Notes under the pieces: generated by a model
Told to the model about the DNA's origin: nothing
Database searches by the model: none
Seen by the model: the letters and a program-made list of their open reading frames with translations, nothing else
DNA from: Tumebacillus sp. BK434
Lineage (GTDB): Bacteria > Bacillota > Bacilli > Tumebacillales > Tumebacillaceae
DNA: 64,000 nt
Direction of reading: 5' to 3'
NCBI RefSeq assembly: GCF_004340785.1
Contig: NZ_SLXS01000005.1
Location: 124,001 to 188,000 of the forward strand
Shown here: piece after piece, positions 15,492 to 56,220 of the stretch
How the letters are laid out: every line of letters starts with the position of its first letter
Position numbering within the stretch: the stretch's first letter is position 1
Position numbers and translations under genes: made by a program

Positions 15492-16637
15492 TCACGCCTC
15501 GGGCGCTTCTTCCACCGCCCAAGCCATCTCCTGCCTGATCTCCTCATCCGGCTCCCGCGCATATGCTGCCGCGACCAGAGCCCGCGTGCCTTCCGGGTCG
15601 ATCTTCTGCAGCGCCCAGGCAATCGTCCCGCGGATCTCCCGGCGCTCGTCCTGCTCCAGCATCTCGAGCAGTTTCGGCAGCGCCGCCTGCTCCCGCATGT
15701 TGCCGAGCGCGATGATCGCATTGCGCTGCATCACCTTCGCCCCGCGCCATGCGGCTGCCGACTCGCCAAACTCCCGGCGAAACTGCTTGTTCGACAGCGT
15801 CAACAGCCGCATCAGATCGGGAAACGCATACTCCGGCTCCGGATCAAACTCGATCGCCGTCCCAAACGCCACTTCCCGATTCTTCGGACAGACCACCTGA
15901 CACGTGTCACAGCCCCACAAACGCCGCCCCAGCTTCGCCCGGTACTCCAGCGGGATCAGCCCTTTCATCTGCGTAATGTACGACAGACACTTGCTCGAAT
16001 CGGTCTGAAAAGGATTGACCAGCGCCTTCGTCGGACATGCCTTCAAACACAGATCCGGACAATCCTCACACTGCGGCAGCAGACTCGGTTCGCTCGGTTC
16101 AATGTCAACATCGCAAACCAATTGCCCGAGAAATACCCACGACCCGTGCTTCTCCGTGATCAGTGAACAGTTCTTGCCAACCCAACCGATCCCCGCCCGC
16201 TGCGCCACCGCCCGGTCGACCAAGGGACCTGTATCCACCGAGTTGTGCACCGCGATCGGCCGCCCGGCCTCCTGCTCCAAGCGGGCCGCCAACAGCTCCA
16301 GCTTCGCCTTCAGCACCTTGTGGTAGTCCATCCCCCACGCATACACCGACATCTGCCCGCGCAGACCTTCCGGCTTCTTCTGCCCGGCATACTTTTCTGT
16401 GCGATACGCCATCGCGATCGCCACAATCGACTTCGCCTCCGGGAAAAACGCCTTCGGATCGACCCGCTCTTCCAGCACATCATGCTCGAAGCCCGACTCA
16501 TGCCCCGACTCCCGGTACATCACCAGATGCTCATGCACATCGTGAAACGGTTCGGCCGTCGTCACACCGATCCCGTCGATGCCGAGCTCCTCGCCGAGGC
16601 GCAAGATCGTCGCCCTGTCGATCTCATACTTCCTCAT
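15492..16637 (-). CDS. queG: Epoxyqueuosine reductase QueG
   Basis: 381 residues from ATG 16637, 16 bases after the rnhA stop; the longer frame reads back through rnhA. QueG uses cobalamin and two 4Fe-4S clusters to reduce epoxyqueuosine to queuosine in tRNA. The cluster Cys are in CEDCPDLCLKACPTKAL and CDTCQVVCPKN. Upstream, SVDTGPLVDRAVAQRAGIGWVGKNC is the conserved substrate/cobalamin region. The C-terminal 110 residues are HEAT-like repeats that hold tRNA. The enzyme needs B12, which gives the organism a reason to own the cobalamin uptake system at 42-50 kb. Confidence 0.95.
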   Translation of the reverse strand: MRKYEIDRATILRLGEELGIDGIGVTTAEPFHDVHEHLVMYRESGHESGFEHDVLEERVDPKAFFPEAKSIVAIAMAYRTEKYAGQKKPEGLRGQMSVYAWGMDYHKVLKAKLELLAARLEQEAGRPIAVHNSVDTGPLVDRAVAQRAGIGWVGKNCSLITEKHGSWVFLGQLVCDVDIEPSEPSLLPQCEDCPDLCLKACPTKALVNPFQTDSSKCLSYITQMKGLIPLEYRAKLGRRLWGCDTCQVVCPKNREVAFGTAIEFDPEPEYAFPDLMRLLTLSNKQFRREFGESAAAWRGAKVMQRNAIIALGNMREQAALPKLLEMLEQDERREIRGTIAWALQKIDPEGTRALVAAAYAREPDEEIRQEMAWAVEEAPEA

Positions 16638-42505: not shown

Positions 42506-42538
42506 AAAAGGGAGGGTCCTAGTTGGACGCTCCCTTTT
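42506..42538. terminator. Terminator between rsfA and the B12-uptake cluster
   Basis: AAAAGGGAG/CTCCCTTTT with inner TCC/GGA pairs and T-runs on both strands. It contains the stop of the minus-strand toroid gene. Confidence 0.88.
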
Positions 42539-44054
42539 TATATTCCGCGTCATAGTAACGCATGAACGCATAGCCCACTTCGGCGCGGGACGCATTCTTT
42601 TTCGGATCGAATGCCGGGTACCACAACCCCTGCTCCTTGGCGATCTGGATGTGCCCGTCATACCAGTTCTTTTGGTTCGGGCGGGCCAGCGCCTCGCTCT
42701 CCAACCCCAGCATCCGCACGAGGATCGCCATCACCTGCGCCCCGGTCACATTCCCGGCCGGATCGAAGGTGGTGTCGGACGTGCCGAAGATGAATTTGTT
42801 TTTGTACGCGACCGCAATGTACGGGTTCGACCAGCGGTCGCTTTTCACATCGCGGAATCTCGTGATCTTCGGGCCGACCTGATCCTGCAGGTGCTGGCCG
42901 TTGACCAGGATCGTCGAGAACTGCTCGCGGGAGACGTTGTCGTTCGGGCCGTACGTGCCGTTCGTGTGGCCGACGACCACGCCGAGGTTGACCAGCGCGA
43001 TGTTCTCCTCATAATACGGATGCGAGAACGGCAGATCGGCAAACAGCGGCTTCCACGCGCCCGATTTGCCGGCGTTTTGGTCGTGCAGTTGCTCGTAGAC
43101 CGACTCCCCCTTGAGGTAGTCGGACAGCGCCAGCGCGACGTTTTGCGTGGCGAGAATGTTGGAAGCGGTGCCTTTTGCGTAGGCAAAGGCGCCGTCGGCG
43201 TTGCGGAAGGCCAGCATGCTGGAGATGACATCGCCGGAGCCTTTTTTCCATGAGGTCGGATCGATGTCGTGCATCAGCAAGGCTTCGGTGACGATCGAGG
43301 AGCTGTCCGGGTTCTCCACGCCTTCGTTTTTGAAGCCGCCGAAGTCGCTTTGGATTTGTTTGAGGTAGCCCAGCGCTTTTTGGACGCTGGCGTGGCTTTG
43401 CTCCAAGCCCAGCGCTTTCATGGCGATCAGCGCCATCGCTGTCACGTCCGCATCGGAGCGCGGGTTGCCGTTCGACCAGTTGAAGCCACCGTCCGCATGC
43501 TGCTTGGACAACAGGTAGTCGGCCGCTTTTTGTTTGTTCGGGATCTCCACGCCCGCTGCGTACAGCGAAATAATGCCATACAGGTGCGGGTTGAGCAGGT
43601 CGTCGCCAAAGCCGTAGATCGTGTCGGCGAACTTGCCGTTGTCCTGCTGCGCAGACACCACCGCCTGCACGAGGTCCCGGCGGCCATAGGCGCGCGGGTT
43701 CTTCCCGGCGGCGAGCGCGCCGAGCAAGGTGCTTTCGAAGTCGGTGGTCGCGTCGGTGATGTTCAGGTTCTTCTTGAGGTCTGCTTCGCGCCACGTCACG
43801 CCGTTTTGTCCGGCCGCAGTGGTCCATCTGGCGCCGGTCGGCGACTCGCCGGCCGCATAGATCGTCAGCGCCGGCCAGTCCATGACGTAGCGGAAATTGT
43901 TCTGCGCGAGCTTGCCGCGCAGGTAGTTGAGGGCGCCGTCGCGGACGCCGGTCAGCTCCGCGGTGGTCGCCGCTTGGGCTGTGCTGACCGGAGCGGCGAA
44001 CAGAGCCACGGCGAGCGCACCGGCAAGCCATTTGCTAGTGTTGGATGTTTTCAT
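42519..44054 (-). CDS. Exported alpha/alpha-toroid protein with three SLH domains
   Basis: 511 residues from ATG 44054 behind GGAGGTG. A signal peptide ends near VSTAQA. Residues about 30-340 are a prenyltransferase/squalene-oxidase-like toroid with repeats such as QHADGGFNWSNG, QSDFGGFKNEG and NADGAFAYAKG, the fold that forms the alpha domain of animal transcobalamin and intrinsic factor. The C-terminus has three SLH modules (GVVVGHTNGTYGPNDNVSRE, KFIFGTSDTTFDPAGNVTGA, GLWYPAFDPKKNASRAE) for wall binding. It is the last gene of a riboswitch-led cluster and overlaps the S-component gene by 20 bases. I infer a cobalamin-binding surface protein. Confidence 0.85.
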   Translation of the reverse strand: MKTSNTSKWLAGALAVALFAAPVSTAQAATTAELTGVRDGALNYLRGKLAQNNFRYVMDWPALTIYAAGESPTGARWTTAAGQNGVTWREADLKKNLNITDATTDFESTLLGALAAGKNPRAYGRRDLVQAVVSAQQDNGKFADTIYGFGDDLLNPHLYGIISLYAAGVEIPNKQKAADYLLSKQHADGGFNWSNGNPRSDADVTAMALIAMKALGLEQSHASVQKALGYLKQIQSDFGGFKNEGVENPDSSSIVTEALLMHDIDPTSWKKGSGDVISSMLAFRNADGAFAYAKGTASNILATQNVALALSDYLKGESVYEQLHDQNAGKSGAWKPLFADLPFSHPYYEENIALVNLGVVVGHTNGTYGPNDNVSREQFSTILVNGQHLQDQVGPKITRFRDVKSDRWSNPYIAVAYKNKFIFGTSDTTFDPAGNVTGAQVMAILVRMLGLESEALARPNQKNWYDGHIQIAKEQGLWYPAFDPKKNASRAEVGYAFMRYYDAEYKKGASN

Positions 44055-44760
44055 CAGTCTGCACCTCCAGCGAGATCGTCGTAAGTTTTTTCCGAAACCG
44101 GTAGAGGATCGGGAGAAACGAGCGGGTCAGCAGCAGCGCGAACAGCACGTTGGCCGCCGCGTGCGACACGTCAAACCAAAACGAAGCGGCGTTTGCTGCG
44201 ACAAAGGTCGTAAAGTTGAGCGGGAAAAAAGTGGTCAGCCAGACCCAGGCGTTCATGATCCAGCCGAACAGGAAGCCCCAGACAGCGCCGAAGACGGCGA
44301 GTTCCAGCGGATGCACCTTCTCGCCCCGCCATCTGCCGTACAGCCCCGCCGTGGCCCCGACCAGCCCCCAGGCCATCATCTGCCACGGCGTCCACGGCCC
44401 TTGCCCGAAAAACATGTTCGAAACGAGCGCGACCGTCGCACCGACCATGAACCCGGCCCGCGGGCCAAACACAAAACCGGCGAGCAGGATCAAATAGGTC
44501 GTCGGCTTGAAATTGGGAAACGGAGCGAAGATGATTCGCCCGACGACCGCCAGCGCCGCCAGCGAGGCGATCAAGGCCATCTCTTTGGAGGAGACTTTCG
44601 CCCGCTCGAAGCGCAAGTAGAACAAGCCAAGGCCGAGGAAGAGCAGGACGAATGAGGTCACCGCCCAATTGAGGTCTTCCGTCGGCCAGAGCGCATAGGC
44701 CAAAAATGCAAGTCCGGCGGCGACGAGGATCAGGAGCCAGGATATGCCGTTACGCTTCAT
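44035..44760 (-). CDS. ECF transporter S component, probably for cobalamin
   Basis: 241 residues from ATG 44760 behind GGAGGG. Six or seven membrane helices, with an early pair (WLLILVAAGLAFLAYAL and SFVLLFLGLGLFYL) and the ECF-S core starting at KEMALIASLAALAVVGRIIFAPFPNFKPTTYLILLAGFVFGP. The size and the extra N-terminal helices resemble the S components linked with cobalamin riboswitches. S components bind the vitamin and dock on EcfT-EcfA. Substrate assignment rests on the riboswitch and the transcobalamin-like neighbours. Confidence 0.87.
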   Translation of the reverse strand: MKRNGISWLLILVAAGLAFLAYALWPTEDLNWAVTSFVLLFLGLGLFYLRFERAKVSSKEMALIASLAALAVVGRIIFAPFPNFKPTTYLILLAGFVFGPRAGFMVGATVALVSNMFFGQGPWTPWQMMAWGLVGATAGLYGRWRGEKVHPLELAVFGAVWGFLFGWIMNAWVWLTTFFPLNFTTFVAANAASFWFDVSHAAANVLFALLLTRSFLPILYRFRKKLTTISLEVQTDENIQH

Positions 44761-44838
44761 GAATCATCCCTCCACGCCATTCATCGGTCAACCTTCGGGC
44801 CGCAGCCAAAGACTTGAAAAAGACGCCTCGATTCCGCT

Positions 44839-46545
44839 TCATTGGCGTTCCTCTCCTTGCGTGAGGAATTTCACTCCGTCTTGCAAGGTGACGATGTTTT
44901 CGGCGACGCCGCGGAAGACGCGGCCGACTTGGGGGGCGTAGAACATGCCACGGGTCAGCATTTCCTGCGGGGGGCCTGCCGCCGCAACCGTGCCGTCGTC
45001 GATCAGCACGATCTGATCGGCGTACTCGGCCGCAAATTCCACGTCATGCGTGATCAGGACGACCGTCCCCCCTTGCTCGAGAAAGGAGCTGAGCCACGCG
45101 CCCAAGCTGTCTTTTTGCCCGGCATCAAGCCCGCGCGTCGGCTCGTCGAGCAGGAGCAGCTGCGGATGTTGCACGAGCACGGCGGCCAGCGCAGCACGCT
45201 GGCGCTCACCTCCGCTCAAGTCGCGGGGATTGCGATCCTTGTGCCCGAACAGGCCCAGCGAGCGCAGCACTGCACCGATCTCTTGCTCCGCCTCCTCCCC
45301 TGTTGTGGAGAGCCCGATCAGTTGGCGCGAGAACTGGCACTCCTGCCATAGCGTGTCGTGGAAGAGATAGTCGCTCGGGTTTTGCGAGAGGTAGCCAACC
45401 TCCCCGGCCAGATCGGCCGGGTCGAACTGTCGGCTGTCCCGCCCGTTGATCTCAATGCGGCCCGCTGTCGGCTTGATCAGCGCCGCAAACTGGCGGAACA
45501 ACGTGCTCTTCCCGGTGCCGTTCGCACCGAGGATGGCGGTGAGGCGCCGTTTGCCGATCTCGAGGTCAAGGCCTTTCAGCACGTCCTCCCCTTCGGGATA
45601 GGCAAAGCGCACGTTTTTCGCCACCAGCGCCGGCGTCTCGCTTTTGCTGCGGGGGCTGAACCAGTTCAGCAACCGCTTGCTGCCACGCGGCGCAACCGGC
45701 GGTGCGGGCTCCTGCAGCGCAAACGCTGACGTGACCAGCTGCCGCCCTTCCTTGACCGTCAACGGGCGATGCGGAGAGCCCGCCTCCACGAACAGCCGTG
45801 TCACTGGAGCCAGCAGTTCTGGGCGCACATCGGCCGCATGGCGGGCAAACCCGGCCGGGTCGCCGTCATACTCGATCTCCCCACCGTACATCGCCGTCAC
45901 GCGGTCGGCGAGATGCAGCACGCGGTCGAGCCGCTGTTCGACGAGGATGACGGTGATCCCGAGCTCTTCATTCAAGCGCTTGATCAGATCGAGGATCTCC
46001 TGCGCTGTGCCCGGGTCGAGCTGCGAAGTCGGCTCGTCAAGCAGCAGCACGTCCGGCTGCAGCGCCATCACCGATGCGATGGCAACTTTTTGCTTCTCGC
46101 CGCCGGACAGGTCGTCCGTCTTTTGGCGACGCAGCGCCGTCAGGTCGAAGAACGACATCACTTCCGCGACCCGGCGGCGCATCTCCGCCTGCGGCACGCG
46201 CAAATTTTCCAAACCGAACGCGATCTCGCGCTCCACTTCGGTCATCACGAGCTGCTTCTCCGGATCCTGAAAGGTCATGCCGATGTGCCGGGCGATGCCG
46301 CGCTCCGGGAACTCGGACAAGTTCTTGCCGCGAAACGCTGCTGCCCCGGCGATCTTGCCCCCGTAGAACTCCGGCACGAGACCGTTTAAGGCGCGGAGCA
46401 ACGTCGATTTGCCGCAGCCGGACGGGCCGGCCAGCACCACAAATTCGCCGCGCTGCACACCCCAGGTCAGGCGGTTCAGCGCAGGGCGGTCTGCATCGGG
46501 ATAGCAGTAGGTTAGATTGGTCAGTTGAATCTCTGCGGATGCCAT
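44839..46545 (-). CDS. ecfA: Fused energy-coupling-factor ATPase (EcfA-EcfA)
   Basis: 568 residues with two complete ABC domains in one chain. The first has GPSGCGKSTLLRALNGL and LSGGEKQKVAIASVMALQPDVLLLDEPTSQLDP. The second has GANGTGKSTLFRQFAALIKP and LSGGERQRAALAAVLVQHPQLLLLDEPTRGLD, and an H-loop VVLITHDVEF. It powers the ECF importer. The ATG at 46545 directly follows the EcfT stop (TAGATG). A 78-base gap to the S-component gene holds nothing I can identify. Confidence 0.95.
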   Translation of the reverse strand: MASAEIQLTNLTYCYPDADRPALNRLTWGVQRGEFVVLAGPSGCGKSTLLRALNGLVPEFYGGKIAGAAAFRGKNLSEFPERGIARHIGMTFQDPEKQLVMTEVEREIAFGLENLRVPQAEMRRRVAEVMSFFDLTALRRQKTDDLSGGEKQKVAIASVMALQPDVLLLDEPTSQLDPGTAQEILDLIKRLNEELGITVILVEQRLDRVLHLADRVTAMYGGEIEYDGDPAGFARHAADVRPELLAPVTRLFVEAGSPHRPLTVKEGRQLVTSAFALQEPAPPVAPRGSKRLLNWFSPRSKSETPALVAKNVRFAYPEGEDVLKGLDLEIGKRRLTAILGANGTGKSTLFRQFAALIKPTAGRIEINGRDSRQFDPADLAGEVGYLSQNPSDYLFHDTLWQECQFSRQLIGLSTTGEEAEQEIGAVLRSLGLFGHKDRNPRDLSGGERQRAALAAVLVQHPQLLLLDEPTRGLDAGQKDSLGAWLSSFLEQGGTVVLITHDVEFAAEYADQIVLIDDGTVAAAGPPQEMLTRGMFYAPQVGRVFRGVAENIVTLQDGVKFLTQGEERQ

Positions 46546-47421
46546 CTAGTTCGATCTCCTTTGTATCAGCAGGGGCACGGTGGCGAGCAGCGCGCCGAGC
46601 AGCAGCGCTCCGCCCCAGGTCAGGCTTCCTTCGGCGAGCAAAGGCGTCAGGCGCGGGTAGAATTCGTACGCCGCAGCGCCGAGGTCGGCGAGCAGGAGCA
46701 GGACGGCAAGCGCCGCCAGCATCACCGCCCACGTCAGCCAGTCGCTGCCGCCAAAGCGTTCCCGCGAGTACGAGCTGCGGTGACGAGACCCGAAGCCGCG
46801 CGCTTCCATCGCTTCGGCGACCTGCCACGACCCTTCCAGGGACGAGATCAGCAGGACGTTCAGCATCCGGCTGTGTTTTTGCAGGCGTTCGCGGGTGCTG
46901 CCTTCCTGAAAGCGCACACCGCGCGTCTGCATCACTTCGCCGACGCTTTTCGCCTGCTCAGACAGATATGGAATCAGCCGGGCGGTGAGCATCGCGACCA
47001 CCGCCGAGCGGCCGGCCCACTTTGCCATCAGACCGAGCGCGCGGTCGGGTGACAGCCAGACGATGTACAGGTTGCAGGCGGCCAACACGATGAACAGGCG
47101 CAAGGCCATGATCAGGCCGAACAGCACCGCCTCCAGCGTGATCCGGAGCGTTCCGAACAGGGGCAGGCGCGGCCCGTCATAGAGCACGGTCGCCCCGTTT
47201 TTCGAGATCAGCACGTTCAGGATCAGGATGATCAGCAAAAACGGCCAGGTGAACCGCATCATCCGCAACATCGATTTCGCTCCCCCGCCCGCCCGCAACG
47301 CGTACAGGGTCACAGCAAGCAGCGCGGCGAGGTACAGCGGATGCGGCGTGATCATCGCCAGCACGATCAGGAGCAGCGGATAGACGGCGAGCGTGGCGGC
47401 ATGAAAGCGCTCAAGCCTCAT
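46546..47421 (-). CDS. ecfT: ECF transporter transmembrane component EcfT
   Basis: 291 residues. Membrane helices flank a cytoplasmic coupling region that carries the two EcfT signature Ala-Arg-Gly-like motifs: GEVMQTRGVRF and AEAMEARGFGS. These helices contact the two ATPase domains. Its ATG overlaps the upstream lipoprotein stop by 4 bases, which links transporter and receptor translation. Confidence 0.93.
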   Translation of the reverse strand: MRLERFHAATLAVYPLLLIVLAMITPHPLYLAALLAVTLYALRAGGGAKSMLRMMRFTWPFLLIILILNVLISKNGATVLYDGPRLPLFGTLRITLEAVLFGLIMALRLFIVLAACNLYIVWLSPDRALGLMAKWAGRSAVVAMLTARLIPYLSEQAKSVGEVMQTRGVRFQEGSTRERLQKHSRMLNVLLISSLEGSWQVAEAMEARGFGSRHRSSYSRERFGGSDWLTWAVMLAALAVLLLLADLGAAAYEFYPRLTPLLAEGSLTWGGALLLGALLATVPLLIQRRSN

Positions 47422-48701
47422 GGTGCGACCGGAACTCCGACCGCCGCGCCGTTGCTCAGTACGACGCCGATCTTGCCGCGAAGTTTGCCTTTGGAACTGA
47501 CCAGCGTGTTCACCGCCGCGTCGAGGGCCGGTTCGTCCATGCCGATCAGCAGCCAGGTCGGCGTGGTGTCGCCATTGCCGGTGCCGGTCGCGGCGATCAG
47601 CGCCTGGCCGGTCTGGCCGGACTCATCTCCGGTGTAGTCGAGCATCTGCACCGCACCGTTCTCGATGTGGGCATAGATGCCCGTGCGGGTCGGCGCACTG
47701 AACAGATCCTGCACCGACGACTGGCCCTGCAGCTCCGGCCAAGTGCCAAGCACGATGACGTTGGTGGTGTTTTCGATCAGGTTCTGGTTGCCGTACGCAG
47801 CGGTGCGGACATTGCCCGCTCCGAAGCCGCGCAAGGCGGTGGCGAGACGGTTGGCATCGTCCGCATGGCTGCCGCTGTAGTAGATCACCGTGCCCGGCCG
47901 TGAGCCGTTGTAGCCGACCGTAAACGGGTGCGGGTACGCGCCGACGACGCTCGGCGTGTTCGACCCGGAGCCCGACCAGTCGTGGTAATCCCACCACACC
48001 GTATCTCCCGTTTGCGCGCTGTACGCATCCGCACCGACGCCTGCGACCGAACCGTTGACGTAATAGAACCAGTCGCGCTTCTTGCGGGTGAAGATCGACT
48101 TGTCCGTATAGCCTGATGCGACGCCATTGATGCTGTTCACAAAACCGCCGCCGTACTTGGTCTCCACTTCCAGATGTGCATGCATGACATCCATCACAGA
48201 GTTGCCTTTGTAGTAGTTGAGGTTCTGGCTGAAGACGGACGAGCCGCCAAAGTTGTGTGTGACCAACATGTTGAAGCTGCCCGCCGGCTGTGCTTTCGGC
48301 GGAGTGGACGGCTGGGCCGGCTTGGCGGTTCCCGCCCCGCTTCCCGTGCCGGCCGTACCGCCGGTGCCCGTCTTGCCGCCGCCGGACGGCGTCCCTGCAG
48401 CAGGCGCTGGCGGGTTCGCCCCCGGCTTCACGGACGGGGTGGCGGTGTTTGGCTGCTCCGGTTGTTTTTCTGCGCCCTGCGCGGTTGACGGCTCTTTGGC
48501 GTCGTCTTTCCGGTCGGCAGGCTGTTTCTCCTCGGCTTGGCCTGTTTGTTCCGCTTTCTTGGGGAGCATTTCCTGCTCCGGGAGCTGCACGACCTGTTCC
48601 GGCAGCTCGGATTCTGGTTGCTTCGATTCGTCTGCGCTGCCGCAAGCGGTAACCAAGAAGGCAAGCGCAAGAAAAAGTCCAAGGCGTGTAGTGAGCTTCA
48701 T
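47418..48701 (-). CDS. DUF4430 (transcobalamin beta-domain-like) lipoprotein
   Basis: 427 residues from ATG 48701 behind GGAGG. A lipobox LVTAC puts the lipid on Cys20. Residues 22-140 are a Pro/Lys/Gly-rich linker, long enough to span part of the wall. Residues about 143-242 are a DUF4430 domain: SVMDVMHAHLEVETKYGGGFVNSINGVASGYTDKS, then RDWFYYVNGSVAGVGADAYSAQTGDTVWWDYHDW. A C-terminal alpha/beta region of about 180 residues follows. DUF4430 is the C-terminal beta domain of transcobalamins. I infer that it hands cobalamin to the ECF S component. Confidence 0.88.
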   Translation of the reverse strand: MKLTTRLGLFLALAFLVTACGSADESKQPESELPEQVVQLPEQEMLPKKAEQTGQAEEKQPADRKDDAKEPSTAQGAEKQPEQPNTATPSVKPGANPPAPAAGTPSGGGKTGTGGTAGTGSGAGTAKPAQPSTPPKAQPAGSFNMLVTHNFGGSSVFSQNLNYYKGNSVMDVMHAHLEVETKYGGGFVNSINGVASGYTDKSIFTRKKRDWFYYVNGSVAGVGADAYSAQTGDTVWWDYHDWSGSGSNTPSVVGAYPHPFTVGYNGSRPGTVIYYSGSHADDANRLATALRGFGAGNVRTAAYGNQNLIENTTNVIVLGTWPELQGQSSVQDLFSAPTRTGIYAHIENGAVQMLDYTGDESGQTGQALIAATGTGNGDTTPTWLLIGMDEPALDAAVNTLVSSKGKLRGKIGVVLSNGAAVGVPVAP

Positions 48702-48782
48702 GGTGCCTGTTCCTCCTGTTCCGTTCGTACCGTTGTAAAAAGCGGGGAGGCTCAACATCTTGAGCCTCTCCCGTACAGCGTA

Positions 48783-50075
48783 CTATTTGCTTTGTTTGTT
48801 GATGACATTGACGATCGCCGTCGCCACTTCCGCGCGGGATGCGACGTCATGCGGACGGAAGGTGTTTTCCGCGTCTCCTGCCAGCAGCCCTTTATCGACC
48901 GCCGTCTTCACGTACGGCTGTGCCCAGCCGCTGATGCTGTTCCGGTCGTAGAACGGCAGCAGGTTCTTGGTGTTCGAGAGCTCGACGCCGGAGAAGTTGA
49001 CGAGGACGACCGCCAGCTCTTCGCGGGTCAGGCCGGAGTTCGGACGGAAGGTGCCCGCTTTGTCGCCGCTCATCAAGCCGCGCTCGACCACCGTTTCGAT
49101 AAACGTCTTGTAGCCGTTCGTCGCTTTGACATCGGAGAACGACTTCGTGCCGCCAAAGTTCAGGTCGCCTTCTGCCAGCGCAAGGATCTTTGCCAGCTCG
49201 GAGCGGAGCACGGCGCGCTTCGGCTCGTATTGACCGTTGCCGTTGCCGCTGACCACGCCTTTTTTCGCCAGGTCGAGAATCGAAGATTCCGCCCACTTGA
49301 AGCTGCCGAGATCGTCGAACAATGCGTTCGGGTTGCCGACGAGCAGGTTCAAGGTGCCGGTGCGCAACAACTGCGGCACGCCGGTCACGCTGTCCGTCTT
49401 GTCGATGTAGAGCTGCAGCAGACCGGCCTGATCCGCTTGCAGCGTCGCCGTGCCTTCTGCGTTGGTCTCGGTGAGCTTGCTGCCATTAGATGCAGTCCGC
49501 ACGTCCGCTTTGTCGATCTTGACGGTGGAGATGATCGGGTTCCACTCTGCGTCATAGGTGGTCTGCTCCGCCGTGACGTTTACGGTGAACGGAGTGCCGA
49601 CGGTCGGGGACTTGGTCGAGAAGCTGACTTCCGGGAACAGGGTCTGCGTGTAGTCATAATAGCCCCAGACCACTTCGTCGCCGTCTTTGAGTTCAAACGT
49701 TTCGGCAGCAACGCCCGGCGGCTTGCCGTTGACCCAGACCGACCAGCCGGAGTTGGCGTTGAGCTCTTTTTCGGCGAGCTTGCCAACCTTGGTGATATAA
49801 GAGCCAAATGAAAGCGTTTTCGCTTCGTAGGTTGTGCCGTCTTGAGCGAGCAGCTTCATCAACGCGCCCATCGCGGTCGGCTGTTGCATGGTGATCACTT
49901 CACCGACGTTGTTTTTAAAAGAGGACTGGCCCACATTCAAGAGAACTTCCTTGTGGTCGCCATTGAGGCCGGCCAGGCGGACTTTTACCGTCGCAGTATC
50001 GTCCGCCGCAAATACGGATGCTTGCGGGGCGAGCAAGACGGTCGCGAGCAACAGGCTCGCGATACGTTTTTTCAT
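48783..50075 (-). CDS. Exported DUF4430 protein with three SLH domains
   Basis: 430 residues from ATG 50075, nine bases after GGAG; an ATG two codons earlier is possible. A signal peptide ends near SVFAAD. Residues 27-142 are a DUF4430 domain (PTAMGALMKLLAQDG, NANSGWSVWVNGKPPGVAAETFELKDGDEVVWGYYDY). An Ig-like domain (about 150-235) follows, then three SLH modules (GVVSGNGNGQYEPKRAVLRSE, GLMSGDKAGTFRPNSGLTREE, GLLAGDAENTFRPHDVASRAE). It is the first gene after the cobalamin riboswitch. It is the wall-anchored partner of the toroid-SLH protein at the other end of the cluster. Confidence 0.9.
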   Translation of the reverse strand: MKKRIASLLLATVLLAPQASVFAADDTATVKVRLAGLNGDHKEVLLNVGQSSFKNNVGEVITMQQPTAMGALMKLLAQDGTTYEAKTLSFGSYITKVGKLAEKELNANSGWSVWVNGKPPGVAAETFELKDGDEVVWGYYDYTQTLFPEVSFSTKSPTVGTPFTVNVTAEQTTYDAEWNPIISTVKIDKADVRTASNGSKLTETNAEGTATLQADQAGLLQLYIDKTDSVTGVPQLLRTGTLNLLVGNPNALFDDLGSFKWAESSILDLAKKGVVSGNGNGQYEPKRAVLRSELAKILALAEGDLNFGGTKSFSDVKATNGYKTFIETVVERGLMSGDKAGTFRPNSGLTREELAVVLVNFSGVELSNTKNLLPFYDRNSISGWAQPYVKTAVDKGLLAGDAENTFRPHDVASRAEVATAIVNVINKQSK

Positions 50076-50109
50076 CTTCATAATCTCCTTTCGGGATCGA
50101 AAAAATAAA

Positions 50110-50136
50110 AACTCCCGCCCTTGGGGGCCGGGAGTT
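50110..50136 (-). terminator. Riboswitch expression-platform terminator
   Basis: AACTCCCG/CGGGAGTT with a C/G-rich loop, followed on the minus strand by TTTTTATTTTT. It lies between the cobalamin aptamer and the first gene, so B12 binding probably ends transcription here. Confidence 0.85.
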
Positions 50137-50230
50137 GACGGTGTCGTAGGAGCAGGGTATTTGGGCATCACAATCCATGCAAAAAATAGCCTGGTTCCTG
50201 TACCTTCCCGCCGAAAGCACCAAGGGACTT

Positions 50231-50376
50231 GTTAGAAGCAGGTTTCCTGGCTGACGGGTCTGCCGCGTGCTCACACCTTCTCATCCGTCACCCGGACAAT
50301 GGCATCTGTGAGTGCGTCGCCGTTTACAGTAGCGGGGGCTGCAGTGGATTTGCACCACTTTCCCTTCTCTTCTAAC
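50231..50376 (-). promoter_or_regulatory. Cobalamin riboswitch aptamer
   Basis: On the minus strand the closing helix P1 is GTTAGAAG (50369-50376) with CTTCTAAC (50231-50238). Inside are GGGAAAGTGGTGCAAATCCAC, CAGCCCCCGCTACTGTAA and the B12 box AGCCAGGAAACCTGC at 50238-50252. These are the conserved parts of the AdoCbl-type riboswitch. It controls the six-gene cluster 42519-50075 and is the main evidence that the ECF system carries cobalamin. Confidence 0.95.
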
Positions 50377-50385
50377 TACAGTGGT

Positions 50386-50414
50386 AGTTTATCATTTCGC
50401 CCGTTGCTAGACAA
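50386..50414 (-). promoter_or_regulatory. Candidate promoter of the riboswitch transcript
   Basis: TTGTCT and TAAACT with a 17-base spacer on the minus strand, directly upstream of the aptamer. The -35 overlaps the end of the preceding gene's terminator region. Confidence 0.5.
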
Positions 50415-50419
50415 GAGAA

Positions 50420-50443
50420 AAGACCAGCCCGCAGGCCGGTCTT
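50420..50443 (-). terminator. Terminator of the 50442-50810 gene
   Basis: AAGACC/GGTCTT with inner GCC/GGC pairs and a T-run (TTTTCTCTTG) on the minus strand. The stop codon lies in the stem, and the hairpin isolates the riboswitch transcript from upstream reading. Confidence 0.85.
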
Positions 50444-51735: not shown

Positions 51736-54700
51736 TTACGCGTATTTGCGGTAGAGCAGCGCTCCGCCGGCCAGCAGGCACAAGGCCAGCCCGACCCACG
51801 GCAGCATCGGCGGCTCTTCACCCGTTTGCGGCAGCGTTCCTCCCGGTGCCGGTTGCGGCTTCGAACCTTCACCCGTGTTCGGTTTGCCCGGCTGCGAAGG
51901 TTGGCCGGTCGGTTGACCCGGTGACGGATTCTTCGCTTTGACCAGACCCGCGCCGATCGAAAGGTTGGTCTCCCCTTCGCCGAGCGTCACCGGAGCAGTC
52001 CAGCCGGTCGGTTTGGCGTTGGAGTCCGCATTCGGGTCCGAGCCCACGCCGTCCTTGGTCAGGCCGTAACCGGCCGGAACGATAAATTTCAAGCTGTATT
52101 CGCCTTTCGGAAGATCAAGGAACTCATAGAAGCCGTGCTGGCCCATGAACATCTTGGTCTTCGTTGTGGCGATCAGCTTGCCTGTTTTGTCATACAGTTC
52201 GACGGTCACACCGTCCATGCCTTGTTCAGACGGGTCATGAATGCCGTTGGCATTGGCGTCGAACCAGACAAAGCTTCTGATCTTGCCGAGTTTCAGTTTC
52301 GGCGGCTCTTCACCTTTATCCGGCGGCAGGCCGAGCTCGATCAGACCCGCATCGATCGAAGTCTTTGCTTCGCCGATGCCGAGCACGAACAGTCCGGTGC
52401 GGCCGGTGGCAGGATTCGCATCCGAGTCGAGGCTGCGCGATGCGCCCATGCCCGGTGTGGTAAATTCAACAGTTGCCGACGGCAGCACGAAGCGGACTTC
52501 ATAGCTGCCTGCCGCCAGCTTCTCGAATTGGTACCAGCCCGCTTTGCCGTTCATCGTGCGGGTGACGGTCGAAGCGATCAGCTGGTTTTTGTCGTTGTAC
52601 AGTTCGACGGTGACGCCGTTTTGGCCGACCTCATCCGCATCTTGCACGCCGTTTTTGTTGGCATCGATCCAGACGCGGTCGCCGATGCTGCCCTTCGGCA
52701 GCTCAGGCTCAACCACGACAGGCGGCGTGACCGGCGGCACGACCGGCGCTTTGTAGTAGCCGGCGTCGATGCCGGTGAGATGCTCGCTTTGCCCGAGGGC
52801 AAACACGTTGGTCTGGCCGTTCGCGTTGGCGTCAGAGTCCACGCTGCGGTCTGCGCCCTGCATGGTCTTCGTTGCCGGGAACGGCAAGATGAACTTCACG
52901 TAGTAGTTGCCGGCAGCCAGATTCTCGAAGGAATAGTAGCCGCTGGCGCCTGCGCGGTCAGCGGTGACCGTCGTGGCGATCAGGTTGTTCTGATCGTCAT
53001 ACAGCTCGACGGTGATCAGGTTGACACCGTTTTCGCCAGGATCTTGTATGCCGTTGTTATTCTTGTCTTCCCAGACGAAGTCGCCAATCGACGCGTCGCT
53101 CGGCACGTCGTTGATGCCTGCGTCGATCGCCATGTTCTCCTCGCCTTGCGCCAGAGTCACAGTGCGCGTCGACGGAGTGGTAAACGCTTTTGTCGGTGCC
53201 GGCAAGGTGAAGCGAACTTCATAGGTGCCCGGATTCAGCTTTTCGAACAGGTACACGCCGTCCTTGCCGCCAATCGTTGCGGTGGTCGTCGTGGTGAGCA
53301 GTGTGCCGCTGTTGTTGTAAAGGGAGACCAGCACCCCGTTCACGCCGTTTTCACCGGCATCCTGCACGCCGTCACCGTCAGCATCGAACCAAACGGTGTC
53401 GCCGAGCTTGGCCTTTTTCGGGACGAGCGGGAAATCGGCGTTCAGATGCTGTTCGCCGTCAGCCAGCGTGATCACGCCCGTTTTGTCAGGTTCATACGCA
53501 GCAGGCGGCACGACAGCTACCACATAGTCGCCCGGATCGAGATCCGGAAAGAGATATGCACCCGGGTTGCCATTGAAGTCATTCCCGGTCATCGTTTCCG
53601 AAATCTTCGTGCCATCCGCGTCGCGCAGCTCCAGTTTAATGCCGTTGATGCCGGTCTCCGCGCCATCCATCACACCGTTCTCGTTCTGGTCATACCAGAC
53701 GAAATCGCCGATGCTCGCCTTCGGTGAGGAGAGGATGGTAACGCCGACCTTCAGCGGTTCGGAAGCGAGGAGCGACTCGCCCGTCGCTTTGTTCATCTTG
53801 TACGCAAAGGAGTTCCACGCCACTTCCCCGCCGGTCGGTGCGCCGACCGGCGCTACCATCGGCCACTCGAGCGTCGTCATGTTCAGCGGGTCGATGATGA
53901 AATCGGGATCAAATTGGAATTTGATCGCGGTGACCGACGTGAGATCGGCCGGCGGCGTTGCCAGCCAGACCCCGGTGTCAACACCGTTCGAGTCCATCGT
54001 GATATTCGGCGTCGTGGAATAGGCCACCGTCACATAGTTGGGCACTGTGACCTCACCGGTCAACAGCGGGCCCCACTGGCTGCCGCGCGGAGTCGACACC
54101 CGCACCCCGGTGTCCCCGATGCGCGAGAACTTGTTGACGATCTTCAAGTTCTTCGTCGGCACGTTGCCCACGTTTTGAATCTCCAGACGATACATCGTTC
54201 GTCCGCCCGGCGTGGTTCTGCCGACAGTCGGGAACTTGCTCCAGTCGTTGTCGAGCTCGCCTTTGATCAGCAGCTCCGATTGCAGAGCGGTCGTTTCGTC
54301 GACGCTGACACTTGCCTGCGATTCTACTGTGTAGTAACCGCTCGACCCACAGGTTTTGCAGCCCATATTTTTGAATCCCGAGTCGTTCAAGTAATGCGGA
54401 GACCTGACCTGCATTTTGTTGATCAGGTCTCCTTTCGGCGCACCCGGTTTGACGATCGCGGTGAACTTGATAGTCACCTCTTCGCCTTTGGCGAGAATGT
54501 ACGGGTTCGAAGCATCCCAATACCAATTCAGCGTGGTGGTGCCATCCGGCTCAGCGGTCGGCGTAAAGTGCGGCGCAGGCACCCCGGCTGTCGTCACGCT
54601 CCAACTGCCCGGCTTGTATTCCAATTGGGCCGGGAGCAGGTCGACGATCGAGGGATTGTCGAGCGATTTACTCGTGAACTCCGTATTCGTCACTTTCAGC

Positions 54701-56220
54701 GTATACTCGATCTCGTCCAAGGGCCGAACATCCTTCTTGTTGCTGCTCTTTTCCATATTGAGCAACGGACGGTCATCGACGATGTAAACATACGTATTGT
54801 CGTTCATCGTTTTCGTATCGCCATTGAAACTATAGGTCAGCTTCGCAATGTTTTCGACGTTCGTGTTGATGTCTGGAACCACGAAAGTCTCCGGAATGTG
54901 ATAGACCAGATCAAAATTGGTGCTCTGGAAGGCGCTGATCGGTACAGTGGCGAAGCGGAACTGCACGCCAGCGACCCGGTCCGAGGCTGCGAGCGAGAGA
55001 TCTGCCACGTTCAGCGTGGTGGATGCCGTCCCGCTTACGTTTTGCCAAAGCTTCCAGACTCCAAGGTCTTCCTTGGTCGAGTAGTACACATCATAGTCCG
55101 GAATATCTTTGAAAATCGCCGTTCGCACCGTTTTCAATTGGAGGTCGATCGGTACGATTTGCGTCGACTGTGCCGACGTATGTGTCGGCGTCATGTCTTC
55201 AATGATGGCATTGGTGAGCGGTATGTTCGCCTTCGAGTTGAACTCGGAGATGTAGAATGTTACATCTTGACCCGGTGAACGTTCTCTCAGCTTTGGATCC
55301 ACCCACTTTTCAATCAAAACGCCATTGTCGACCGGCTGGGTTGCAAACCCATGCGTGACCTCACCGTTCACGCTGGTTCGGGGCTGCCCGAGCGGCGTGA
55401 ACGCTGCTTCAACCCGGTTGGTGACGGTGGAGTCGGGGAACGACGCCGGATAGTTGACGGTGACGTTCAGCAGGTACGTCCCTTTTTGAAGGTCCCCGAG
55501 ATTCCAGACCACCGTGTTTCCAACCAGCGTGCCGCCCTGAGTCGCGGATACGAAGGTCGCGTCATCCGGCAGCGTATCGGTCACGACCATGTTGGCGGAA
55601 TTCAAGCGACCATTTGATGTCGGGAAGTTATCCTTCAGTTCGATTTGATACTCGACGTTAGCCCCTTTGTACGGTTCCGGCACCGGGCGGTGTTTCGTCT
55701 TCTTAATCGTCCATCTGGCCTCGCCATTCGAAGTGACCGTCACATCGTCGGAGTCCAGCGTGACCGGAGTGCCGTTGACTTCTGCGTTGAACGTGGCCTT
55801 CGTCGTCGCTGTCGTGCCGTCCGGAGTCACATAGTTGTCAAAATATGCCCGGACAGTCAACTCACCGCTCGATCCGGCCGGCAAGGTGTTGCCTGCAAAA
55901 TTGAACGTCACAACTTTCGTAATGCTGTTGTACGAACTGGTAATCGCCGCACTGTGCGACTTAGACGCGAACGTCATGCCACTCGGCACAACAAACCGAA
56001 TCTTCGGATTGGTAAAATTCGCAATGTTGCTGGAGGCGCTGTATGAGATTTTGTAATCGAATACTTCGCCTGAATCAACGACAGATTTGGATGCGGTGAT
56101 GTTCAGATCCAAGCCATCCGTCTCCCCGGCGGCGATGATGCTGCCCGGAGCGACGATTTGGATGATGAGCATGAAGATCAGCATCCAGAGCGCCACCTGG
56201 CGCCGTGATTTCCTCTTCAC
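51736..56220 (-). CDS. LPXTG cell-wall-anchored surface protein with SdrD B-type repeats
   Basis: 1494 residues from GTG 56220 behind GAGGGG. Signal peptide 1-31 (MLIFMLIIQIVAPGSIIAAG). Residues about 35-830 are Ig-like/DUF11-type domains, with a GCKTCGSSG Cys pair. Five SdrD B-like domains follow at about 834-1427, each beginning like SIGDFVWYDQNENGVMDG; such domains bind Ca and stiffen stalks. A Pro/Gly/Lys linker then leads to LPQTG (1463-1467), a membrane helix and RKYA. The sortase gene lies 18 bases upstream and is the likely anchoring enzyme. Probable adhesin or sheath component; the ligand is unknown. Confidence 0.92.
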   Translation of the reverse strand: MKRKSRRQVALWMLIFMLIIQIVAPGSIIAAGETDGLDLNITASKSVVDSGEVFDYKISYSASSNIANFTNPKIRFVVPSGMTFASKSHSAAITSSYNSITKVVTFNFAGNTLPAGSSGELTVRAYFDNYVTPDGTTATTKATFNAEVNGTPVTLDSDDVTVTSNGEARWTIKKTKHRPVPEPYKGANVEYQIELKDNFPTSNGRLNSANMVVTDTLPDDATFVSATQGGTLVGNTVVWNLGDLQKGTYLLNVTVNYPASFPDSTVTNRVEAAFTPLGQPRTSVNGEVTHGFATQPVDNGVLIEKWVDPKLRERSPGQDVTFYISEFNSKANIPLTNAIIEDMTPTHTSAQSTQIVPIDLQLKTVRTAIFKDIPDYDVYYSTKEDLGVWKLWQNVSGTASTTLNVADLSLAASDRVAGVQFRFATVPISAFQSTNFDLVYHIPETFVVPDINTNVENIAKLTYSFNGDTKTMNDNTYVYIVDDRPLLNMEKSSNKKDVRPLDEIEYTLKVTNTEFTSKSLDNPSIVDLLPAQLEYKPGSWSVTTAGVPAPHFTPTAEPDGTTTLNWYWDASNPYILAKGEEVTIKFTAIVKPGAPKGDLINKMQVRSPHYLNDSGFKNMGCKTCGSSGYYTVESQASVSVDETTALQSELLIKGELDNDWSKFPTVGRTTPGGRTMYRLEIQNVGNVPTKNLKIVNKFSRIGDTGVRVSTPRGSQWGPLLTGEVTVPNYVTVAYSTTPNITMDSNGVDTGVWLATPPADLTSVTAIKFQFDPDFIIDPLNMTTLEWPMVAPVGAPTGGEVAWNSFAYKMNKATGESLLASEPLKVGVTILSSPKASIGDFVWYDQNENGVMDGAETGINGIKLELRDADGTKISETMTGNDFNGNPGAYLFPDLDPGDYVVAVVPPAAYEPDKTGVITLADGEQHLNADFPLVPKKAKLGDTVWFDADGDGVQDAGENGVNGVLVSLYNNSGTLLTTTTTATIGGKDGVYLFEKLNPGTYEVRFTLPAPTKAFTTPSTRTVTLAQGEENMAIDAGINDVPSDASIGDFVWEDKNNNGIQDPGENGVNLITVELYDDQNNLIATTVTADRAGASGYYSFENLAAGNYYVKFILPFPATKTMQGADRSVDSDANANGQTNVFALGQSEHLTGIDAGYYKAPVVPPVTPPVVVEPELPKGSIGDRVWIDANKNGVQDADEVGQNGVTVELYNDKNQLIASTVTRTMNGKAGWYQFEKLAAGSYEVRFVLPSATVEFTTPGMGASRSLDSDANPATGRTGLFVLGIGEAKTSIDAGLIELGLPPDKGEEPPKLKLGKIRSFVWFDANANGIHDPSEQGMDGVTVELYDKTGKLIATTKTKMFMGQHGFYEFLDLPKGEYSLKFIVPAGYGLTKDGVGSDPNADSNAKPTGWTAPVTLGEGETNLSIGAGLVKAKNPSPGQPTGQPSQPGKPNTGEGSKPQPAPGGTLPQTGEEPPMLPWVGLALCLLAGGALLYRKYA
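51940..53721 (-). repeat. Five tandem SdrD B-type domain repeats
   Basis: Repeat units of about 103-137 residues, starting near residues 834, 937, 1043, 1176 and 1313 of the surface protein. Each has a DxNxNGxxDxxExG-type Ca-binding loop and a YxFxxLxxGxYxVxF-type strand set. They differ enough in sequence to be old duplications, except for common cores. Confidence 0.85.

Follow-up and report, generated by a model that had tools for sequence, protein, structure and literature searches.

A cobalamin-riboswitch gene cluster of Tumebacillus sp. BK434 with putative split, transcobalamin-like surface proteins and a CbrT-type ECF transporter

Introduction

In 2007, Burroughs et al. described secreted SLBB-domain proteins, often with toroids, encoded in predicted operons with CbiO- and CbiQ-like genes, and proposed a role for them in the scavenging of vitamin B12 (PMC1796856). 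The same study proposed that animals acquired a toroid-SLBB combination by transfer from bacteria. BtuFCD is given as the only known prokaryotic B12 transporter in a 2009 survey of B12 use (PMC2667541), and CbrT, an S component of an energy-coupling factor (ECF) transporter, has been characterized as importing cobalamin and cobinamide (PMC5997447). Here we analyze a six-gene cluster behind a cobalamin riboswitch, located in a 64-kb stretch of the Tumebacillus sp. BK434 genome (contig NZ_SLXS01000005.1, positions 124,001 to 188,000; the whole stretch is referred to as the window, and all positions are counted within it). Taken as a whole, the cluster is probably best explained as a cobalamin-repressed operon, in which separate transcobalamin-like halves would capture B12 or another corrinoid on the surface and a CbrT-type ECF transporter would import it. 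The predicted capture and import of B12/corrinoid by this gene set are well supported by the comparisons described below.

Results

Organization of the gene cluster

An original prediction, made from the letters of the window, held that a riboswitch heads six collinear genes with little or no gap between them. This arrangement was confirmed by domain searches of each product. The features of the cluster are as follows:

50221..50411, minus strand: cobalamin riboswitch aptamer RF00174 (Rfam covariance model, 89.6 bits, E 8.1e-21)
50101..50137, minus strand: predicted intrinsic terminator (expression platform), an RNAfold hairpin followed by a U-rich run
48783-50081, minus strand: P0001, with DUF4430 (3.3e-12) and three SLH domains; signal peptide and Ig-like middle region recognized by eye
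47418-48701, minus strand: P0002, with DUF4430 (6.5e-17), a lipobox VTAC recognized by eye, a low-complexity linker and an unnamed C-terminal domain
47421..47972, minus strand: the unnamed domain of about 175 residues at the C terminus of P0002, conserved in related DUF4430 proteins
46546-47421, minus strand: P0003, EcfT of the CbiQ family (5.4e-14), the transmembrane coupling protein
44839-46545, minus strand: P0004, fused EcfA-EcfA with two ABC ATPase domains
44035-44760, minus strand: P0005, matching ECF S-component families (best 3.7e-13), CbrT-like
42519-44054, minus strand: P0006, with a Prenyltrans toroid (2.7e-6, residues about 28-335) and SLH (7.3e-18); signal peptide recognized by eye

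The gene order behind the riboswitch, all on the minus strand, is thus DUF4430-SLH, DUF4430 lipoprotein, EcfT, fused EcfA-EcfA, S component and toroid-SLH, and successive genes are separated by 81 bp, a 4-bp overlap, 0 bp, 78 bp and a 20-bp overlap. The start codons of P0001 and P0002 were chosen by us, the listed open reading frames starting further upstream. All parts of an ECF transporter, namely EcfT, two EcfA ATPase domains and an S component, are present, and a secreted DUF4430 protein is encoded in one operon with CbiO- and CbiQ-like genes, as in the SLBB systems of Burroughs et al. In this comparison DUF4430 is treated as the transcobalamin-type SLBB domain, an equation of two names that is our own. 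The toroid and DUF4430 lie on separate genes in the window, unlike the single chain of transcobalamin, intrinsic factor and haptocorrin. Judged from their domains, P0001 would represent a wall-anchored beta half and P0006 a wall-anchored alpha half of such a carrier.

Similarity of P0005 to the cobalamin S component CbrT

When a profile of 28 S components (A1) was searched against the PDB, the best match was 6fnp_A (1.5e-27), followed by 4hzu_S (6.7e-7), which we take to be an S component; further matches included the folate S component 5d3m_C (0.053) and the riboflavin uptake protein 3p5n_A (0.064). The single sequence of P0005 already matched 6fnp_A at 1.2e-9. The entry 6FNP is ECF-CbrT (PMC5997447), and we infer that its chain A is CbrT, since the S-component profile matches it over its length. 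P0005 is therefore closer to CbrT than to the other S components of known structure, which groups it with a characterized cobalamin S component and suggests that it is a putative cobalamin S component itself.

Another reading is that of a cobalt or other metal importer, in which a CbiQ/CbiO-like ECF module works with metal-binding surface proteins. The EcfT and EcfA families bear the name of cobalt transporters, and the DUF4430 profile has as its top PDB match an entry named a putative metal-binding protein. However, neither CbiM nor CbiN was found among the six proteins (P0005 matched CbiM only at E 0.86), the S component is CbrT-like, and the genome encodes CbiM and CbiQ elsewhere, at another locus with a riboswitch of its own. 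On these grounds cobalt import was rejected, and we regard a metal importer as extremely improbable.

Riboswitch and leader region

The RF00174 aptamer exceeded the gathering score of 31.5, covered model positions 1-189 in full, and was the sole Rfam match at or above the gathering threshold within the window. The B12 box (50252-50238) was found at the place where it had been predicted, and the 8-bp P1 helix (50376-50369/50238-50231) was reproduced exactly by RNAfold of the aptamer, the stability of the whole fold being ordinary in comparison with shuffled sequences (z -1.2). The predicted terminator is located between the aptamer and P0001. Its hairpin did not stand out significantly in stability from shuffled sequences (z -1.5) and was not among the calls of a consensus terminator scanner, a miss that we would guess is due to a one-base bulge. 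When cellular cobalamin is low, the terminator would remain unformed and the operon would be expressed.

Two further elements were noticed around the leader. A promoter-like TTGTCT and TAAACT, 17 nt apart, were seen by eye at 50414-50386 on the minus strand (8/12, below the scanner threshold), spaced for a transcription start at about P1. A terminator-like hairpin behind the gene upstream of the cluster ends at 50420.

Conservation of the neighbourhood

To describe the distribution of the cluster, domains in the neighbourhoods were called by hidden Markov models iterated from the window's own proteins, and not by Pfam unless Pfam is named. Of 14 genomes of the order, 8 have relatives of P0005 (E <= 1e-5), the host among them. 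In a sample of 398 genomes of the class, 131 have such a relative, the weakest of these 131 matches (E up to 1e-5) possibly being other S components. The named loci are the 80 best among 587 related stretches. Counts were made over the 58 in which the sequence extends 8 kb or more upstream of the S component, and the 22 with less were left out of these counts. Some named loci are contigs of metagenome-assembled genomes (MAGs), whose phylum labels were taken as given. We found that the 58 loci contain DUF4430 (58), EcfA (58), EcfT (57) and a toroid (55), with toroid and DUF4430 in one protein in 44, SLH in 31 and the B12-box pattern in 43, the last being counted with a 16-mer motif that tolerates up to 3 mismatches, and not with Infernal. 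With the short loci included, DUF4430 was present in 71/80 and a toroid in 64/80. Regions were also taken from seven genomes of the host's own order and, picked by hand for spread, from 40 loci of the class. The 40 class regions gave DUF4430 in 38, EcfA in 33, EcfT in 29, a toroid in 27, the fused protein in 17, SLH in 16 and the B12 box in 29. Within the own order, the toroid was present in 8/8 genomes and DUF4430 in 7/8, the miss being L019, where the contig ends 1.3 kb upstream of the S component. Riboswitch-led toroid/DUF4430/ECF neighbourhoods, for which a search of genomes had been suggested with the original prediction, recur in other genomes, as seen in the counts over the 58 named loci.

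Infernal placed RF00174 upstream of the S component, on the same strand and within 15 kb, in 38 of 48 genomes, a part of these counts having used stricter filters that lose weak matches. Of the ten others, eight contain no cobalamin riboswitch at all; in G009 the cluster is divided between contigs, and in G127 riboswitches occur at other places only. When Pfam DUF4430 was searched across 24 whole genomes, 48 of 50 domains lay on the contig of the S component and no more than 12 kb from it, and the remaining two, both of G009, lay on another contig next to a cobalamin riboswitch. This location hints at a role of DUF4430 in these genomes. The recurrence of the same gene order in other genomes indicates that the cluster is more than a product of chance, and chance clustering was rejected in view of the conserved neighbourhood and the location of nearly all DUF4430 domains near the S component.

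In the class sample, short S-component relatives near one small DUF4430 gene (134-182 aa) were also observed at L073-L078 and L080-L082, where our profiles found neither a toroid nor EcfT. EcfA was also not found nearby at L073, L074, L075, L078 and L082, which perhaps use a shared common ECF module.

Fused and split receptors

In many relatives, toroid and DUF4430 are joined in a single large surface protein, whose gene is accompanied by that of a DUF4430 lipoprotein and then by those of EcfT, EcfA-EcfA and the S component. No fused toroid-DUF4430 protein was found in the window or in the other four clusters of its family that are complete (L014-L018, which make five when the window's genus is counted). 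In a tree of 149 toroid rows, P0006 belongs to a 40-row group, supported by an SH-aLRT of 84 only, all members of which lack DUF4430 in the same protein; the members of this clade were transcribed manually from the tree as drawn. Among the 40 loci of the clade, a fused protein is also present in 14 and not in 26, the absence being unsure for L019, L094, L100 and L112, since these loci are cut by contig ends. A second tree was built from 116 DUF4430 proteins, taking from each locus the one closest to EcfT, and in it P0002 belongs to a 39-row group (support 99/89). A P0006-type toroid is present in 34 of the 39 loci of this group as compared with 4 of the 77 others, and the label for this toroid changes 10 times on the tree versus 32 times in shuffles (0/500 as low). 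We read this as the inheritance of a lipid-anchored beta half and a stand-alone toroid as a pair, which suggests that the lipoprotein P0002 and the toroid P0006, and not the two SLH proteins, are the likelier partners. The original prediction, in which two halves on separate SLH proteins form a surface unit with the ECF pump, is supported in part: a riboswitch-led unit for B12/corrinoid capture and ECF import, made of transcobalamin-like halves, agrees with the CbrT-like S component, the natural fusions and the model of one of them (L161, see below), and the pairing of SLH with SLH is disfavoured by the trees.

Toward their C terminus, fused receptors such as the one of L161 have the same DUF4430-(Ig-like)-SLH order as P0001, which may therefore be a reduced fused receptor. 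Stand-alone toroids without SLH appear to end in a copper-amine-oxidase-type stalk domain at L084, L086, L090, L091, L104, L094 and L126, and in a C-terminal membrane helix at L118, L131, L133 and L142 of Actinomycetota-labelled MAGs (both by eye). With SLH, stalk-like or membrane-helix ends, the toroid appears to be kept while its anchor varies.

One possible objection is that the surface proteins act singly, the DUF4430 proteins as single-domain B12 binders and the toroid-SLH protein as a structural, unrelated or enzymatic protein that does not close on B12. The fold of the window toroid is generic (see below), DUF4430 occurs without a toroid in 3 of the 58 named loci, and 13 of the 40 class loci lack a toroid, 11 of them still having DUF4430. 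In addition, the isolated beta domain of human transcobalamin binds cobalamin (PMC5599065). On the other hand, toroid and DUF4430 form one chain in 44 of the 58 named loci, and P0006-type toroids co-occur with P0002-type lipoproteins. Class II terpene cyclases carry a DxDD motif. P0006 has DADV at this site, although D occupies the last column in 11 of 69 toroids, and DxDD occurs somewhere in 12 of the 69; an enzyme function of the window toroid was rejected because of DADV in place of DxDD. We consider it unlikely that the surface proteins act singly and prefer the hypothesis of halves that close on the corrinoid together.

Comparison of folds and sequences with transcobalamin

The model of the P0006 toroid was confident (pLDDT 92.3, pTM 0.93). 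Its best Foldseek matches were the beta subunits of farnesyl- and geranylgeranyl-transferases, with squalene-hopene cyclase lower, and VIA gave 3sqc_A with Z 25.1 (2.8 Å over 266 residues). The natural toroid-DUF4430 part of L161 (Paenibacillus eucommiae) was also modelled (pLDDT 86.9, pTM 0.78), and its 15 best PDB matches were all transcobalamin, haptocorrin or intrinsic factor, ranging from 8ixu (1.1e-9) to 2pmv_A (4.6e-7) over 406-444 columns. VIA, which aligns the toroid part, placed 2sqc_A (Z 22.5, 3.1 Å, 250 residues) ahead of 2pmv_A (Z 18.8, 3.0 Å, 231 residues) and 4kki (Z 18.7, 3.1 Å, 243 residues), suggesting that the likeness to the animal carriers rests on the combination of domains and not on the toroid. 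In the structure prediction that had been proposed as a check, P0006 alone is generic, and the natural L161 fusion matches transcobalamin-type carriers best, though with another orientation of its domains.

In sequence searches, a 70-row DUF4430 profile matched transcobalamins of the PDB at 0.0064 to 0.12 (transcobalamin-2 at 0.0064, transcobalamin-1 at 0.017). Single-sequence PDB searches with P0001 and P0002 gave no transcobalamin, and a profile of 16 fusions gave cyclases first and no transcobalamin in the best 60 of 77 matches. A direct match between P0006 and transcobalamin was sought with phmmer, a 69-row profile, Pfam and two fold comparisons, which gave prenyltransferases, squalene-hopene and related cyclases, or complement-type domains; transcobalamin was not among the matches listed in these comparisons, an absence that proves nothing. 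Ten large fusions were scanned and had no match to Cobalamin_bind. At L096:14240-15448, a toroid-DUF4430 fusion of a Marinisporobacter MAG was observed to match the eukaryotic Cobalamin_bind just below the cut-off.

Unnamed C-terminal domain of P0002

Across the loci, 35 proteins contain the unnamed domain, always behind a DUF4430. Of these carriers, 33 fall inside the 39-row lipoprotein group, six members of which lack the domain, and those outside are L144 and the second DUF4430 protein of L089. Of the 35 loci with the domain, 28 also have a P0006-type toroid and seven do not; in ten loci this toroid occurs without the domain. None of the 35 carriers belongs to a named Paenibacillus or Bacillus locus. 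A Pfam scan of the domain gave nothing near the cut-off (best 0.0084), and a PDB profile search gave stray matches only; the weak Pfam rows and the matches to designed proteins (2mr6_A, 0.0032) were taken as chance.

Cobalamin metabolism of the host genome

The host genome has three cobalamin riboswitches: the one of this cluster, a second upstream of the CbiM and CbiQ locus, and a third upstream of a run of B12 biosynthesis genes. Ten proteins of the two other riboswitch loci were tested, of which CbiF, CbiL, CbiE/CbiT, CbiD, CbiH, CobT, CobA, CbiM and CbiQ scored above curated cut-offs and CbiG scored under its own. CobT and CobA are located on the other side of the riboswitch. B12-binding domains gave nine matches in the genome, seven of them over the cut-off, and the QueG gene expected in the window was recovered at 15603-16601. 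The single toroid (profile A2) and the two DUF4430 domains of the genome are all located in the cluster. Upstream of the cluster, 51736-56220 (minus strand) encodes a secreted-looking protein of 1494 aa with GDxVWxDxNxNG-type repeats and an LPQTG sorting signal (by eye).

These genes bear on the nature of the ligand. The same operon may serve a corrinoid precursor or variant, such as cobinamide or other cobamides, with the surface halves choosing among cobamides. CbrT accepts cobalamin and cobinamide alike (PMC5997447), and a salvaged precursor could be finished by the host, since the genome encodes CobT and the corrinoid adenosyltransferase CobA. Nevertheless, the riboswitch and the transcobalamin-like parts do not discriminate between these ligands, and nothing favours a precursor over the vitamin. 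A precursor or variant as the true ligand appears rather improbable.

Discussion

Several observations weigh against the capture of B12 by transcobalamin-like halves in Tumebacillus. The window toroid by itself has a generic alpha/alpha-toroid fold, as modelled, and transcobalamin was not among the 50 fold matches listed for P0006, although such an absence proves nothing. P0006 has no match to Pfam Cobalamin_bind (PF01122), and one of the 16 fusions of profile A3 (L096) reaches it, at E 2.6e-5 and 23.8 bits against a cut-off of 25. The sequence match between DUF4430 and transcobalamin is marginal, as the best PDB match of the profile is the putative metal-binding protein 3u7z_A (9.2e-4) and an unrelated SUI1 protein (0.012) stands between transcobalamin-2 and -1. 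Twenty of 60 stand-alone toroids fall outside the P0006 clade. The root-mean-square deviation of the 15 best L161 matches is 20.8-22.9 Å, and the domains of the model are not in the closed holo arrangement. The halves can be aligned singly, and their relative orientation differs. A flexible linker connects the domains of transcobalamin, which presumably come together on cobalamin (PMC5599065), so that an open L161 model without ligand is neither a contradiction nor a support. Finally, the host probably makes B12 too, and its biosynthesis gene cluster suggests that salvage or import would take place beside synthesis.

We nevertheless prefer the hypothesis of capture by separate halves. In the proposed mechanism, DUF4430 (beta) and the toroid (alpha) would bind the corrinoid between them in a transcobalamin-like manner, as separate polypeptides, the working pair most likely being the lipid-anchored P0002 and the wall-anchored P0006. 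P0001 would be an extra wall-anchored beta half, possibly binding B12 weakly and concentrating it. The corrinoid would then be passed to P0005 and released inside with the aid of EcfT and EcfA-EcfA. The closure of separate halves has a precedent: separately expressed domains of human transcobalamin assemble on cobalamin (PMC5599065), and in cut intrinsic factor both fragments, IF30 and IF20, still bind cobalamin (PMC6257451). More tentatively, and with some doubt, we suggest a two-piece transcobalamin, in which P0002, with its C-terminal domain as a docking domain, and the SLH-anchored P0006 would stay apart until they close on B12, the closed pair would dock on the CbrT-type pump, and P0001 would feed the two halves; this arrangement might be the old form behind both the fused bacterial receptors and the animal carriers.

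The original prediction also regarded the gene set as not described as a functional unit, which does not hold, since a prediction of this kind was already given by Burroughs et al. (PMC1796856). What is already known is the type of system, as predicted in 2007, and the characterized CbrT pump. As far as our searches go, three features are new relative to the literature: the split layout with SLH anchors, the inheritance of its parts together, and the additional domain of P0002. A literature search, for which subscription papers were mostly out of reach, found no experimental work on the toroid or DUF4430 surface proteins of bacteria. The operon bears on the origin of the animal B12 carriers, and it makes the question testable with six genes, as the separate halves can be purified one by one. 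The unnamed domain of P0002 is, in addition, a new domain to study.

Among B12-capturing surface proteins of other bacteria, the surface lipoproteins of gut Bacteroides are reportedly those of the BtuG family. The Bacteroides lipoproteins are exposed on the surface of Gram-negative cells and capture B12 there (PMC6143338), whereas the capture system proposed here is Gram-positive. As compared with the animal carriers transcobalamin, haptocorrin and intrinsic factor, the cluster shares the toroid and the beta domain, and the halves of those carriers can assemble on cobalamin as separate chains; the animal proteins, however, are one soluble chain taken up by receptors, and the cluster encodes an ECF pump along with distinct chains anchored to the wall or by lipid (PMC5599065, PMC11107200, PMC6257451). 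ECF-CbrT of Lactobacillus delbrueckii has the same kind of S component, but it uses a common, shared ECF module, with its gene in nrdJ-cbrS-cbrT-pduO, whereas the ECF module here is encoded in the operon with the surface proteins (PMC5997447). Closest are the systems of Burroughs et al. (PMC1796856), which likewise combine secreted SLBB (DUF4430-type) proteins with CbiO- and CbiQ-like genes, often have a second extracellular SLBB protein, as here, and contain toroid fusions of the kind that occurs in the relatives of the window. Their hosts usually lack key enzymes of B12 biosynthesis, in contrast to this genome with its biosynthesis cluster. The term S-layer occurs 0 times in the available part of that text, whereas SLH anchors are present here, and the split pair of stand-alone toroid and lipoprotein and the CbrT-type S component, absent from the description given there, are features of the Tumebacillus cluster.

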